Source: Leeia oryzae DSM 17879
GTDB lineage: Bacteria; Pseudomonadota; Gammaproteobacteria; Burkholderiales; Leeiaceae
NCBI RefSeq assembly: GCF_000376945.1
Contig: NZ_AQXU01000019.1
Coordinates: 124,001-188,000 of the forward strand
Length of the DNA: 64,000 nt
Reading direction: 5' to 3'
Positions within the stretch are counted from its first letter, which is position 1. Every line of letters begins with the position of its first letter. Below are positions 2,649 through 13,918 of this stretch, piece after piece. A model generated the notes under the pieces. It did not search any database, had not been told where the DNA came from, and saw only the letters and a list, made by a program, of their open reading frames with translations. The translations under genes and the position numbers were made by a program.

Positions 2649-3258
2649 GTTTGTCTCGTTTCCATATTTTTGTGTGAGCGAAGCCGCTTGCCATTCTTCT
2701 AATGGGGGCCATCAAGCATATTTCAACCTTTTTGCCATTAGAAGGACGTGTCATTCATCGAATGCATGCAAACAGCACTTTACCGATGCGCAATTTGACC
2801 GGTCTCGGGAATTACCCATACAGGGGACCGGGTCAATTTCTTGTTATTAAGAATAGGTGTCTAAATCGCAAAGAAAGTTCATTTCCAGTTTACGCTTTTT
2901 AAAAATAAATTTCATTTCCCTGAAAGACAAATTTTTTCCGGCACTTGAATTACATCTTTCCCAGACCGCATAACGGGCCCATTTCTGCTTTTGCCCAAAT
3001 ACACACCATCATTATTCTGGACACTGATCGATAGAGGCATATCGCTCATGAAGTGCATCGCTACCTTGGTTGTTATCCGTTAGCAGGGTTAATCGAACCT
3101 CAATGGCCACAAGAAGGCACAACTGCACCACGGTGAAGCAATGCTGCACCGCAATGCAGCAAATGACCGCCGGCATGATCGGGCTGGCAAACGGGCGACG
3201 GGTTGCAAGTCAAGCCCTGACGCCTATATAGGGTTTTTTCATCGCTTTCTTATACAAG
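2649..3258. other. Long AT-rich intergenic region between H-NS and an EAL operon
   Basis: About 600 bases with no credible coding region. Bases 2850-2960 are markedly AT-rich. The stretch should hold the H-NS promoter and, if the sigma-54 promoter at 3259 is real, the enhancer sites for its activator. A CCCT/AGGG mini-stem followed by six Ts near 3214-3240 could be a weak terminator that insulates the operon. Confidence 0.5.
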
Positions 3259-3274
3259 TGGCATGCAAATTGCT
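3259..3274 (+). promoter_or_regulatory. Sigma-54 (RpoN) promoter
   Basis: TGGCATGCAAATTGCT fits the sigma-54 consensus TGGCACG-N4-TTGCW with one mismatch (T for C at the sixth base). The invariant GG (3260-3261) and GC (3272-3273) are exactly ten bases apart. Transcription would begin near 3285 and give a leader of about 100 bases before the EAL gene. RpoN commonly drives flagellar and chemotaxis genes, which agrees with the operon content. Confidence 0.75.
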
Positions 3275-3298
3275 TTTTCAGGGATAAGGAATTCGGGT

Positions 3299-3369
3299 CA
3301 AAGGCGGCCCTTTGCAATAGAACAATGGCGTTCTCCGGGGATTTACCCCTGGCGAGCGCTTTTTTTTTT
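3299..3369 (+). terminator. Leader hairpin plus intrinsic terminator (candidate attenuator)
   Basis: Two stems lie in the leader. CAAAGG/CCTTTG (3299-3304 with 3309-3314) has a CGGC loop. The second stem pairs 3328-3340 with 3346-3359 around an ATTTA loop, with one bulged T (3350) and one mismatch, and is followed at once by ten Ts (3360-3369). The T run ends six bases before the ribosome-binding region of the EAL gene at 3384. Since the sigma-54 promoter is upstream of it, the terminator lies inside the operon's own leader. What would control read-through is unknown. Confidence 0.75.
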
Positions 3370-3383
3370 AGAGGATAGACAAT

Positions 3384-4703
3384 ATGGAATATACGGCCAA
3401 TGTCTTGCCGCAAAGCGTGAGCCCGCTATGGGGTGCGCGCCATGTCCGTCCGCTTGTGCCGGACATGCCTGGCCAGCCTCCCTTGGCGGTTGTCTTGCAG
3501 GCCATGCAGGAAGAGGGGGGACGAGCGAAAGGCATGTTCCGTCATCTGCGCATGGATAGCGGGTTTCAGCCAATTTATAGCTTGCCGCATAGTCGCATTG
3601 TCGGGCACGAGGCATTGCTGCGGGCCACGCAAGCGGATGGGATGGCGGTCTCGCCAAAACTGGCGCTGGAAATGGCCCGTACGGATGCCGAACTGGTGTT
3701 TGCAGACCGTTTGTGCCGGGCTGTCCATCTGCGGAATTATCAGATACAGACCCAGCCGGTGCATGATCAGACCTGGCTGTTTCTGAATGTCTCGACCGGT
3801 GTGGTGGCCCAGCGTCGTGACTTTGGCTCTTTTTTTACCGATCTGCTCGCGCATGCCGGATTTCCTGCCAGGCGGGTGGTGGTGGAGATTCTGGAAGGCG
3901 CGGTGCCGGATTTGGGTCTGCTGGCAGATGCCATTGCCTGGTATCAGCACTTGGGGTGCCTGGTCGCGCTGGATGATTTTGGCGCAGAAGCCTCCAATAT
4001 CGAGCGGATCTGGCGTACCGCGCCGGATATCGTCAAGCTCGACCGTGAACTGATTGCCTCGGCAGAGCGTTCGGCCAAGGCTCGCAGGGTGTTGCCGGGT
4101 ATTGTCGATCTGATTCACGAGGCCGGTAGTCTGGCCTTGATTGAAGGGGTCGAAACGGTATCGCAAGCCGCCTTGGCGATTGATGCCGGGGCAGATCTGG
4201 CGCAGGGCTACCATTTTGCCCGGCCGGCGCCTAATCCGCTACGCGAGGGGGATGGCGGTATCCGTGCACTGGCGGTGCAAAAAGAAATCTCGGTCGCCAG
4301 ACAGCGTAGTGAACTGGAGCCCTACATGGCTGCGGTACGTCAGTCGGCCAAATGCTTGCAAGCACAGATGCGTCTGACGGATGCGTGTGCAGAGTTGCTG
4401 CGCCAGCCTGGGGTGGACCGCTGTTATCTGATTAACGAAAAAGGGGTACAGGTAGGGGAAAGCATCCTGCCCGCCGGCCAAGAACCGGCCGCTTCCCGGT
4501 TTGCACCGCTGGAAAATGCCGCAGGCGCCAACTGGTCTTCCCGCTCTTATCACTACTGCGCCATTGCCCAGCCGGGCGAGGTGCAAGTCAGCCGTCCCTA
4601 TCTGTCGGTGGCCAATTCATGCCTGTGCATTACCTTGTCGCTGGCTATCCGGGTCTCGGATACGTTGAGCGTTTTGTGTTGTGATCTTAACTGGGAGGAA
4701 TGA
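3384..4703 (+). CDS. EAL-domain cyclic di-GMP phosphodiesterase with C-terminal Cache-like domain
   Basis: A 439-residue protein expected to hydrolyse cyclic di-GMP to pGpG. The EAL domain (about residues 55-285) keeps the catalytic set: EALLR (76-80), Asn in FLNVS (135), Glu in VVEILE (168), DDFG (197-200), Lys in VKLD (218), Glu residues in IEGVET (254, 257) and Gln in QGYHFARP (274). I therefore expect an active enzyme. The C-terminal 150 residues contain [13 protein letters not shown] and [17 protein letters not shown], matching the PAS/Cache-like sensory domain found C-terminal to EAL in YkuI-type proteins. No membrane segment is visible. AGAGGA precedes the ATG by 9 bases. The receptor gene downstream starts one base after this stop codon, so translation is probably coupled. 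Confidence 0.93.
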
Positions 4704-5932: not shown

Positions 5933-6799
5933 ATGGAAACGGTCTTGATCAGTATCGGTTTGTTGTCTGGTGTGTTTGTGCTGCTCCACTGGTTGCAACG
6001 CAAACTGGCGCAGATGAGCCAGTTGCGTCGTCAACGCGGTTTGGGCGCGGTCAAGGCCGGCGTTAATCTGATGACCTGTGTCCAGCAGCATCGCGGCATG
6101 TCTGCTGCCCTGTTAAGCGGTGATCACAGCTTCAAACCACGCTTGCTGGGTATGCAGGACAAGATTGCCCAGGCCCTGAATCAGGTATCCGATGCACTGA
6201 CCAATGCGCCAGAGCAAGGCATGGCCAGACGGCGCTTCTTGCAAATCCAGCAGGCATGGTCACAATTGCAGCAGCAGGTACAAACCCTGAACCCGGAGCA
6301 AAGCTTTAAGCAGCATACGGGGCTGATCCGGCAGGTACTCTATCTGCTTGGGGACATGGGGGAGCGTGCCGGTCTGCTGGAAGGCCACCGGTTGGCGCAA
6401 ACGCAGTTGGCAGAAGTCTTGCTGCAGCGTTTGCCGTTGCTGGCAGAAAGCATCGGCCAGGCACGTGCGCTGGGCAGCGCCAGTGCCGCCAAAGGGGCTT
6501 GTGGTGCCGTCGGGCGAATTCGACTGGCGTTTCTGCTGCAGCGCATCCGGACTTGCCAAACCCAAACGGACATTGCGTTTGATTATCCGGCGCTAACCGC
6601 CTTGGCTACCCGCTGTAGCGAGAAGGTAGATGCCTTGCAAATGGTCATCTCAACCCGCATTCTGGGCCCGGATACGATTGACCTGGCACCGGATGCATAT
6701 TTCAAGATGGCCACAGACGCCATTGATGCCTGTCTGGCGCTTTGGCAAGCTGCGGCCGGGCTGGTTGCAGAAGGCGATGGCATGGCGATGCAAACTTAA
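5933..6799 (+). CDS. Membrane-anchored NIT-like (nitrate/nitrite sensing) domain protein
   Basis: A 288-residue protein with one N-terminal membrane helix (about residues 3-20) and a long all-helical remainder. The motif QQHRGMSAALLSGD (51-64) resembles the NIT signature (Q-x-x-RG-x-S) of nitrate/nitrite-sensing domains, and a second helical repeat holds GDMGERAGLLEGHRLAQTQL. NIT domains normally sit N-terminal to kinase, receptor or antiterminator outputs; here no output domain follows. AGGAG six bases before the ATG at 5933 fixes the start, 22 bases after the receptor stop. Gene order suggests it works with the EAL protein and the receptor. The family call is from motif memory and is moderate; ligand binding is inference. 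Confidence 0.7.
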   Translation: METVLISIGLLSGVFVLLHWLQRKLAQMSQLRRQRGLGAVKAGVNLMTCVQQHRGMSAALLSGDHSFKPRLLGMQDKIAQALNQVSDALTNAPEQGMARRRFLQIQQAWSQLQQQVQTLNPEQSFKQHTGLIRQVLYLLGDMGERAGLLEGHRLAQTQLAEVLLQRLPLLAESIGQARALGSASAAKGACGAVGRIRLAFLLQRIRTCQTQTDIAFDYPALTALATRCSEKVDALQMVISTRILGPDTIDLAPDAYFKMATDAIDACLALWQAAAGLVAEGDGMAMQT

Positions 6800-11527: not shown

Positions 11528-13918
11528 ATGTTAACCAAAACCCGGCAAGTCGTAGACAGTATCTCGCAGTACACATGGGGCAAACTCCATGCAAGGATCT
11601 TGCGTCTGATCGGCATTACGTTGCTGCTGACGGTGACGACAGGCGCGCTGGTGTCATGGTGGATTCTGGATTACCGCTTCAAGGCACTGGAAACCCAGCA
11701 GATCATGGGACAGCTTTCTGCCGCAGACGCGCTGGTGCAAGACCGTATTTCCGGCCTCTCCCGTGCCGCGGCAGATTACGCGCTGTGGGACGATTCCTGG
11801 AACTACATGACGGCCGAGAACCCGACTTACGATACCTCGACCTTTACCCCTGAAGTTCTGAAAAATCTGGATATCGACCTTTTCATGATGATCCGGATGG
11901 ATAAATCCGTCCGCGTCGCCGTGGGCACCCCCACCTTCTTTTTATGGTCAGACAAGCCCGTTACCATTTCCAAGACGTTTCACCATCTGACCACCCGCAT
12001 GCTGGGGAAGATCAACTGGCAAGACATCCAGATGCAGCTTGACCAGAAGAAACACGCTGGTCAATGGCTGACTGTCGAGCACCAGCAAATGCTGGTGGGT
12101 ATTTCCCCGATCATGCACAGCGATGGCAAAGGGCCGCAAAGAGGCTATTTGCTGATGCTCAAAGTCATTACCCCGGCGCGGCTGGCGGCCATGCAAAAGT
12201 TGACGAACAGCCCCTTCCGGATTGTGCCGGTGTCATCGGTGCAAACATCGGGCGTACGCTTTGGCGAGGATACTTTTAATGCCGTCATGAGCACCGCGAT
12301 TGCGCGAAACAGTGGCTATGCGCTGACTTATGCGGGCGAACGACCCTCTAACAAAGAGCGCTGGATTGCGTTTTTCCTGCTGCTTGCCAATGTGATCCTG
12401 ATTTTTGCCGTGGCGACCGTCGTCATCATGACGGGGTTATCCCGGCTGGTTGTCAAACGGTTGCAGCATTATTGTGTGCAGCTGGGGCGCTATGAATCTG
12501 AAGGGCGCTCTATGCGCTTGCAGCATGAGGAGGTCGATGAAGTAGACAGTCTCGGACACCACGTCAACGACCTGCTGGCCAAGGTGGAAGACCATCATCA
12601 GCAGCTATCTTATGATGCCACGCACGACCATCTGACCTTGCTGGAAAACCGTATTTTGTTGCAGCAACGAATCGAAGCCGTCTGCAACCGCGCAGAGACA
12701 TCCGTTGCTGGCATAGCGCTGATCCTCATTGATCTGGATTTTTTCAAGAACATCAATGATATCCATGGGCATCCGGCTGGCGATGACCTGCTGAAAGAGC
12801 TGGCACAGCGTTTATTGGCACTGTCTGGCAAATCGCATGCTGTGTCCCGGCTGGGGGGCGACGAGTTTGCCATCTTCATGCCACATGTCTACCGCCAGGA
12901 AGACGCCATGCTGCTGGCCGAAGAGATCAAGCTCCATTTGCAGAATGGTGTCATGGTGGACCAGATAAGCTACCGCATGACTGCCAGTATCGGTGTGGTG
13001 TTTATTGAAGGCGCCCATGTGGCCGAAAATTCTGCTGCTATTTTGCTCAAGAAGGCAGATATCGCCATGTATCGCGCCAAACAACACGGCCGAAATACCG
13101 TCATTCTGTTCGCAGACTGGATGCAGGCCCTGCTGGAAGAAAACAACCGGCTGGAGCTTGAGCTGATAGAAGCCATACAGCAGCGGGCAATTGATTTTTA
13201 CCTGCAGCCCATTGTTGACATTGCCCATCACTGTTTAAGCTCTGTCGAGGTACTGGCCCGGTGGCCACACCCACGTCTTGGCATGGTCATGCCGGGGACT
13301 TTCATCCCGATTGCAGAGCAAGGCAGACTCATGCAAAAACTGACCCTGAGCCTGTTGCACAAGGTTTGTCGCCAATGCAAGCCACTGGTTCAGCAAAACC
13401 CCGGTTTGCGCATTTCCATGAACGTCTCTACACAAGAGCTGCTGGAAGAAGGTTTTGTAGAAGAGCTGGCCCTGATTCTGCGACAGCACGAGTTTTCTGG
13501 CGAATGGCTGAATCTGGAAATCACCGAGTCCTTGCTGGAAACCAATGAAAAAAACCTGATCGGGCCGATGAAATATTGTGCCGACCTCGGGATTCATTTC
13601 CATCTGGATGATTTCGGCACCGGGTATTCATCACTTGCCAGGTTGCATACCTTGCCGTTTACCACGCTCAAGATCGACCGCGCCTTTGTGTCTCGGCTGG
13701 GCTTCGAGGGCGACAGCATAGTAGAGGCCATTGTGAAAATGGCGCATGCGCTCTCGCTGAAAGTGGTGTGCGAAGGCGTGGAAACGCAGAAACAATATCA
13801 GCTGGTGCAGGCACTCTCAGCGGACGAGGTACAAGGTTACCTGTTTGCCAGACCCATGCCGGCGCATGAACTTCCCGCCTGGCTGGAGAGCTTTCAGGCG
13901 GAGAACCTGAGCGTCTGA
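11528..13918 (+). CDS. CHASE4-GGDEF-EAL cyclic di-GMP turnover protein
   Basis: A 796-residue inner-membrane protein. A membrane helix (about residues 25-46) leads to a periplasmic CHASE4 sensor with the signature ALWDDSWNYM (86-95); a second helix lies near 277-303. GGDEF domain: intact GGDEF at 443-447, but the RxxD inhibitory site is absent (GKSH occupies that position). EAL domain: EVLARW, Asn in MNVST, Glu in EITESLLE, LDDFGTGYSSL, Lys in LKIDRAFV, CEGVET and QGYLFARPMP are all present. Either or both activities are possible; the full EAL set argues for phosphodiesterase function, with GGDEF active or serving as a GTP-sensing module. The gene stands alone. Confidence 0.95.
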   Translation: MLTKTRQVVDSISQYTWGKLHARILRLIGITLLLTVTTGALVSWWILDYRFKALETQQIMGQLSAADALVQDRISGLSRAAADYALWDDSWNYMTAENPTYDTSTFTPEVLKNLDIDLFMMIRMDKSVRVAVGTPTFFLWSDKPVTISKTFHHLTTRMLGKINWQDIQMQLDQKKHAGQWLTVEHQQMLVGISPIMHSDGKGPQRGYLLMLKVITPARLAAMQKLTNSPFRIVPVSSVQTSGVRFGEDTFNAVMSTAIARNSGYALTYAGERPSNKERWIAFFLLLANVILIFAVATVVIMTGLSRLVVKRLQHYCVQLGRYESEGRSMRLQHEEVDEVDSLGHHVNDLLAKVEDHHQQLSYDATHDHLTLLENRILLQQRIEAVCNRAETSVAGIALILIDLDFFKNINDIHGHPAGDDLLKELAQRLLALSGKSHAVSRLGGDEFAIFMPHVYRQEDAMLLAEEIKLHLQNGVMVDQISYRMTASIGVVFIEGAHVAENSAAILLKKADIAMYRAKQHGRNTVILFADWMQALLEENNRLELELIEAIQQRAIDFYLQPIVDIAHHCLSSVEVLARWPHPRLGMVMPGTFIPIAEQGRLMQKLTLSLLHKVCRQCKPLVQQNPGLRISMNVSTQELLEEGFVEELALILRQHEFSGEWLNLEITESLLETNEKNLIGPMKYCADLGIHFHLDDFGTGYSSLARLHTLPFTTLKIDRAFVSRLGFEGDSIVEAIVKMAHALSLKVVCEGVETQKQYQLVQALSADEVQGYLFARPMPAHELPAWLESFQAENLSV

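Follow-up and report, generated by a model that had tools for sequence, protein, structure and literature searches.

Introduction

In Leeia oryzae, a predicted operon encoding an EAL-domain protein, a methyl-accepting chemotaxis protein (MCP) and a NIT-domain protein (EAL-MCP-NIT) is preceded by a leader in which a sigma-54 promoter is followed closely by an intrinsic terminator, an arrangement that raises the question of which signals start transcription of these genes and which allow it to proceed beyond the leader. Dependence on two regulators has precedent in nitrogen metabolism, as the nas genes of Klebsiella require the Ntr system as well as NasR (PMC5424462). RNAs targeted by ANTAR proteins bear six-base loops with A1 and G4 as their signature, and the ANTAR antitermination targets known so far are mostly nitrogen-metabolism genes (PMC3369931). 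In NasS-NasT systems the complex comes apart in response to nitrate or nitrite, and the freed NasT binds leader RNA (PMC3795266; PMC6759348). In this work we analyze the promoter, the leader RNA and the genes of the EAL-MCP-NIT operon, together with orthologous operons and a survey of 399 genomes of the order. The EAL-MCP-NIT leader is a predicted switch of a known type on an unexpected behavioral target.

Methods

The window is the whole stretch of Leeia oryzae DNA that was analyzed (64 kb), and all coordinates refer to it unless a locus is named. Transcription start was predicted by setting the C of the promoter GC at -12. Orthologous operons were located using the NIT gene as marker, and five leaders with the EAL gene first, the window included, were compared; three of the five come from metagenome-assembled genomes (MAGs). 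EAL similarity alone was rejected as an orthologue criterion, as it led to other operons with no convincing leader match (L008-L020, L067-L079).

Two covariance models were used. R1 was built from four leaders, the window included; the MAFFT hairpin alignment misplaced the P1 register, and linkers were therefore trimmed in two nas seeds. The seeds of R2 were 14 nas leaders, taken as untrimmed matches and without the window. In the survey, sigma-54 sites with up to two mismatches were sought within 160 nt of each leader, and the first batch of leaders comprised 76 from the survey plus two found separately.

Results and discussion

Promoter and upstream sites

The features of the region are collected in Table 1. 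The sigma-54 promoter reported in the initial annotation, in which ten bases separate GG from GC, was borne out: the element shows the GG-N10-GC spacing within TGGCAYG-N4-TTGCW and is the sole perfect match to the TGGCAYGNNNNTTGCW consensus on either strand of the whole 64 kb window, with no perfect match in 30 dinucleotide shuffles of the window. Placing the C of GC at -12 sets the predicted +1 at 3285. The two NtrC-like sites are spaced 21 bp apart and precede the promoter by about 100-135 bp. By chance, a window should contain about six single NtrC-like sites with two mismatches, but a pair within 60 bp was found in none of 30 shuffles. The sequence CCTATATAGGGTTTTTT, at 3220-3239 just 5' of the promoter, resembles a small terminator-like repeat and could shield the operon against transcription from upstream.

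Table 1. Features of the EAL-MCP-NIT operon and its control region in the window
Feature	Position	Strand	Basis
NtrC-like enhancer site 1 TGCACCACGGTGAAGCA, putative	3124..3140	+	2 mismatches to TGCACC-N5-GGTGCA
NtrC-like enhancer site 2 TGCACCGCAATGCAGCA, putative	3145..3161	+	2 mismatches
Sigma-54 (-24/-12) promoter TGGCATGCAAATTGCT	3259..3274	+	Perfect consensus; conserved in orthologous leaders
Antiterminator hairpin P1, GGGUC[AAAGGC]GGCCC, hexaloop with A1 and G4	3295..3310	+	Fold, R2 match, covariation
Antiterminator hairpin P2, AGAAC[AAUGGC]GUUCU, hexaloop with A1 and G4	3319..3334	+	Fold, R2 match, covariation
Intrinsic terminator, stem 3328-3359 plus ten U 3360-3369	3328..3369	+	Retained in each of the five EAL leaders
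Shine-Dalgarno AGAGG of the EAL gene, probable	3370..3374	+	Direct reading; ATG at 3384
EAL-domain c-di-GMP phosphodiesterase, predicted, 439 aa	3384..4703	+	Pfam EAL, 140.6 bits
Methyl-accepting chemotaxis protein, 401 aa	4705..5910	+	Pfam MCPsignal and HAMP
NIT-domain protein, 288 aa, one N-terminal TM helix, without ANTAR	5933..6799	+	PF08376, 39.4 bits, over cut-off

Leader RNA

The key feature of the leader, absent from the initial annotation, is the pair of hexaloop hairpins P1 and P2. The 3' half of P2 forms part of the terminator 5' arm (overlap 3328-3334), and RNA folding shows P2 and the terminator to be mutually exclusive: RNA extending to 3344 folds as P1 plus P2, and in the full leader the terminator replaces P2. 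The hairpins are separated by a linker of 8 nt (3311-3318), which falls within the workable length known from Enterococcus faecalis eut, where linkers of 5-12 nt function and those of 3 and 14 nt are impaired (PMC3369931). The window contains a single instance of a dual hexaloop combined with an overlapping terminator, and none appeared in 100 dinucleotide shuffles of it.

Each arm of the terminator stem spans 13 positions, a single mismatch interrupts the pairing, and the folding energy is -20.8 kcal/mol; this internal mismatch is probably the reason why the stem at 3328-3359 was absent from the list returned by a simple terminator scan. The long stem and the ten Ts ahead of the ribosome-binding site had been described correctly in the initial annotation, but not their distance of 54 nt from the start, since from a predicted start at 3285 the RNA reaches the stem after about 43 nt; a terminated transcript would measure about 85 nt. 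On sequence grounds, the leader is a predicted ANTAR-target (NasT-type) antiterminator RNA and displays all the defining features of this class that could be tested.

The terminator could be governed by a small-molecule riboswitch, for instance one for c-di-GMP, to which the operon is related, or by a translated leader peptide, given that a short frame running from ATG 3325 to a stop at 3378 can be read across it. Either is highly improbable. A search of the whole window against Rfam gave no match at the gathering score of any family, the dual hexaloop is of the ANTAR type, and ATG 3325 has no Shine-Dalgarno sequence and is not conserved, as the other orthologues have AACGGC where the window has AATGGC.

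Conservation in orthologous operons

Andreprevotia chitinilytica DSM 18519 (63/60/51% identity) and MAG CTSoil_114 (66/67/56%) also carry the complete EAL-MCP-NIT operon. Two further MAGs, one of Formivibrio and one of Pseudogulbenkiania, have the EAL gene and its leader on one contig and MCP-NIT on another. The sigma-54 site recurs in all five EAL leaders; it matches the consensus fully in the window and in Andreprevotia and Pseudogulbenkiania, and carries one mismatch in CTSoil_114 (GGGCATGTATATTGCT) and two in Formivibrio (GGGCATATATATTGCT). All five leaders likewise contain the dual hexaloop and, directly 5' of the gene, a terminator with 7-10 T, so that the stem and T run, whose absence from orthologues would by the initial annotation have refuted it, are both found in all five EAL-first operons. 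Changes on both sides affect five of ten base pairs, and 98% of alignment cells are paired, as against at most 62% in slid controls. The Andreprevotia, CTSoil_114, Formivibrio and Pseudogulbenkiania genomes encode one ANTAR protein each, and the same-genus genome G001 has neither an R2 match nor an ANTAR protein.

A Gallionellales MAG carries the genes in the order MCP-NIT-EAL behind a sigma-54 promoter and encodes a NasT-like ANTAR protein. Hexaloops and a terminator were looked for in this leader and are absent, which indicates that the RNA elements accompany the gene order with EAL in front.

An RNA match at L162 626-683 was discarded as a candidate MCP-NIT leader because it precedes another gene, and weak matches such as L098, apparently located within an elongation-factor-G-like coding region, were taken as chance.

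The probable regulator and the nas leader of the same genome

Leeia oryzae encodes one ANTAR protein, a receiver-ANTAR protein of the NasT type located beside nasS. The neighborhood of nasT/nasS contains the NMT1-type NasS, a nitrate/nitrite MFS transporter, nirB and nitrate reductase. Between nasS and the transporter gene lies the nas leader of this genome, which comprises, in order, an NtrC site (TGCACTGCAACTGTGCA, one mismatch), a sigma-54 site (TGGCACGGTTGATGCT), a dual hexaloop (AATGAC and AAAGGC) and a terminator that overlaps the second hexaloop. These elements recur in an identical arrangement in the EAL-MCP-NIT leader, with putative NtrC sites.

The nas leaders of Leeia oryzae (L037 / L005 about 13830-13815) and CTSoil_114 (L268) have an additional A1/G4 hexaloop hairpin upstream of P1-P2, such as GCC[AAAGGC]GGC, which is possibly a tandem NasT site. 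Within the nas cluster, a gene for a fused PP2C phosphatase / Ser-Thr kinase (L005 10801-12468, minus strand) is located between those for the nitrate transporter and NirB.

The similarity between the two leaders can be quantified with the covariance models. R1 matched further nas leaders in other families, and the seeds of R2, all upstream of nas genes, nearly all have a sigma-54 site and a terminator of their own. R2, whose calibrated E-values are rough and whose independence is incomplete because its seed loci were located by R1, which contained the window, matched 3294-3335 with 43.1 bits (E 2.5e-8 in the 64 kb window, 1.4e-6 genome-wide). In the whole genome it scored the nas leader at 46.3 bits and a third match at 18.4, so that Leeia oryzae has two clear ANTAR leaders. 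A search of plasmids for the leader returned no match.

These results bear on whether the structure is regulatory at all. Intrinsic terminators are common, and the structure might be a plain terminator or chance fold, acted on by no regulator and passed by low constitutive read-through. We consider this extremely improbable, given that the geometry is kept with covariation in five orthologues, that no shuffle reproduced a matching structure and that the score of the nas-only model lies far above background.

They also bear on the identity of the antiterminator. The presence of a NIT protein in the operon, and the coupling of NIT to ANTAR in NasR (PMC5424462), would suit nitrate autoregulation by the operon's own NIT protein or by a NasR-like NIT-ANTAR protein. 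There is, however, no NIT-ANTAR protein encoded in the genome, its sole ANTAR protein being the receiver-ANTAR protein beside nasS, and the product of gene 3 has no ANTAR domain and is therefore not the antiterminator; the chance that this explanation is correct is minimal.

Survey of the order

R2 yielded 104 matches (E <= 0.003) in 92 of the 399 genomes. Gene context was examined for 101 matches: 96 precede nitrate-assimilation genes, two precede the EAL operon (those of Leeia oryzae and Andreprevotia) and three are unassigned (L230, L232, L256). A sigma-54 site was detected in 97 of 103 leaders (75/78 in the first batch and 22/25 in the second), compared to 1.5% in the shuffled control, and 74 of the 78 first-batch leaders have a T tract. 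NtrC-like sites with at most two mismatches are present in 35 of 74 upstream regions, versus 49 of 1480 shuffles (3%). These counts establish a sigma-54 promoter followed by a terminator as the ordinary nas layout in the order, and overturn the view of the initial annotation that early termination behind such a promoter is unusual. The novelty of the EAL-MCP-NIT leader is its target genes, not the layout of promoter and terminator. Among the unassigned matches, L230 (G372:C16:7953-8007) combines the R2 match with a sigma-54-like site and a T tract, 5' of a 294-aa frame with a signal-peptide-like start, and is a possible further non-nas NasT target.

The survey helps to weigh the candidate activators. 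The genome encodes an NtrC equivalog, which is the likely activator of the EAL-MCP-NIT promoter judging by its upstream sites. Several other sigma-54 activators are also present and the operon carries motility-type genes, as would be expected if NasT antitermination operated with another enhancer-binding protein, flagellar or NtrX-type, the inputs then being nitrate and a motility signal. This variant appears unlikely in view of the tandem NtrC-like sites at enhancer distance, the enrichment of such sites in the leader class as a whole and the one-mismatch NtrC site at the genome's own nas promoter.

Genes of the operon

In alignments, the EAL protein conserves E76, N135, E168, D197/D198, K218, E254 and Q274, which we take to be the expected EAL catalytic residues. 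Its C-terminal part (residues 290-439) contains an 11-residue motif, is conserved in three aligned orthologues and has no Pfam match; it may be a sensor domain. The MCP gene starts 1 nt past the EAL stop, and no ligand-binding domain was recognised in its product by Pfam search.

The assignment of gene 3 as a NIT protein derives from a whole-genome family search, its orthologues and its fold. Default hmmscan missed NIT in the window's own gene 3, and five of six members of its family match NIT by hmmscan. The AlphaFold model (mean pLDDT 73) has NasR (4AKK) as its best PDB match, with a modest TM-score of 0.57-0.60. The NIT domain of PA4520 does not bind nitrate, and NIT domains are thus not always nitrate binders (PMC6381276). 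The MCP and the NIT protein would together constitute a split chemoreceptor.

Proposed mechanism

We propose, with a probability of roughly 0.85, that the region 3124-3384 is a two-input nas-type nitrogen switch on a behavioral operon, combining NtrC-P/sigma-54 initiation with NasT antitermination. The proposal builds on what can be read from the sequence: the predicted promoter, the dual hexaloop with its overlapping terminator, their conservation, the sole NasT-type ANTAR protein and the matching nas leader. From these we infer NtrC as the activator, binding by NasT, nitrate as the signal and a behavioral output. When nitrogen is limiting, NtrC-P would occupy the tandem sites (3124-3161) and activate sigma-54 RNA polymerase at 3259-3274. 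By default, the terminator (3328-3369) would form within 85 nt and transcription would stop. If nitrate or nitrite is present, NasS would release NasT, which would bind the A1/G4 hexaloops of P1 and P2 and keep P2 closed, leaving the terminator 5' arm unpaired. Read-through would then deliver a c-di-GMP phosphodiesterase, a sensorless chemoreceptor and a NIT nitrate/nitrite-type sensor protein, and the output would probably be lower c-di-GMP and nitrate-guided motility. The double gating and the nitrate-linked antiterminator suggested in the initial annotation are hence well supported, but the antiterminator is likely NasT, with NasS as the sensor, and not a NasR-like protein or the operon's own NIT protein.

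The use of the same two-step switch as the nitrate-assimilation genes suggests that nitrate also tells cells how to move. We put forward only tentatively, and with the odds somewhat against it, the fuller notion that NasT controls behavior through an ANTAR-switched split nitrate chemoreceptor, made up of the sensorless MCP and a membrane-anchored NIT protein, and a c-di-GMP phosphodiesterase, such that nitrogen-starved cells meeting nitrate abandon sessile life and steer by it.

Comparison with known systems

The leader shares with the nas leaders of its own genome and of the order the NtrC-like site, the -24/-12 promoter, the dual hexaloop, the P2-overlapping terminator and the close first gene, but those leaders control nitrate transport and reduction, whereas this one controls EAL-MCP-NIT. 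Ntr-dependent initiation, nitrate-responsive ANTAR antitermination and a dual hexaloop are also shared with Klebsiella oxytoca nasF/NasR (PMC5424462, PMC3369931). In Klebsiella the NIT sensor and ANTAR belong to one fused protein, NasR; here, NasT would act with a separate sensor, NasS, and the NIT protein of the operon has no ANTAR domain. EutV and AmiR targets have in common with this leader two small A1/G4 hairpins, the second overlapping the terminator (PMC3369931), and differ in signal and controlled genes.

The NasT regulon of Bradyrhizobium (nos, nap, nirA) extends beyond the nas operon, as is proposed here, and no mention of chemotaxis, GGDEF or EAL was found in the paper describing it (PMC6759348). 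Within the literature covered, in which subscription journals are thinly represented, we found no NasT/ANTAR target in c-di-GMP or chemotaxis genes. A link between nitrate and a chemoreceptor also exists in Pseudomonas aeruginosa McpN (PilJ domain), the transcript of which falls with nitrate (PMC6381276), whereas EAL-MCP-NIT is predicted to be nitrate-induced; McpN has its own periplasmic sensor domain, unlike the MCP studied here. In Burkholderia pseudomallei nitrate lowers c-di-GMP, with NarX/NarL as the proposed route (PMC5524735), from which a NasT route to c-di-GMP, if true, differs. A NasT-type leader on a chemotaxis/c-di-GMP operon would couple nitrate sensing with lifestyle decisions via a simple RNA switch, and would also provide a likely signal for the MCP-NIT gene pair that recurs in the order.

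This pair of an MCP gene and a separate NIT gene is seen in several genomes of the order, whether or not an EAL gene accompanies it (L158-L166, e.g. L159 2665-4705 and L165 5267-7309), and the loci in G389 and G110 have sigma-54-like sites upstream without an ANTAR leader. A second c-di-GMP enzyme, a CHASE4-GGDEF-EAL protein, is encoded a few genes downstream of the operon, at 11528-13918 of the window.
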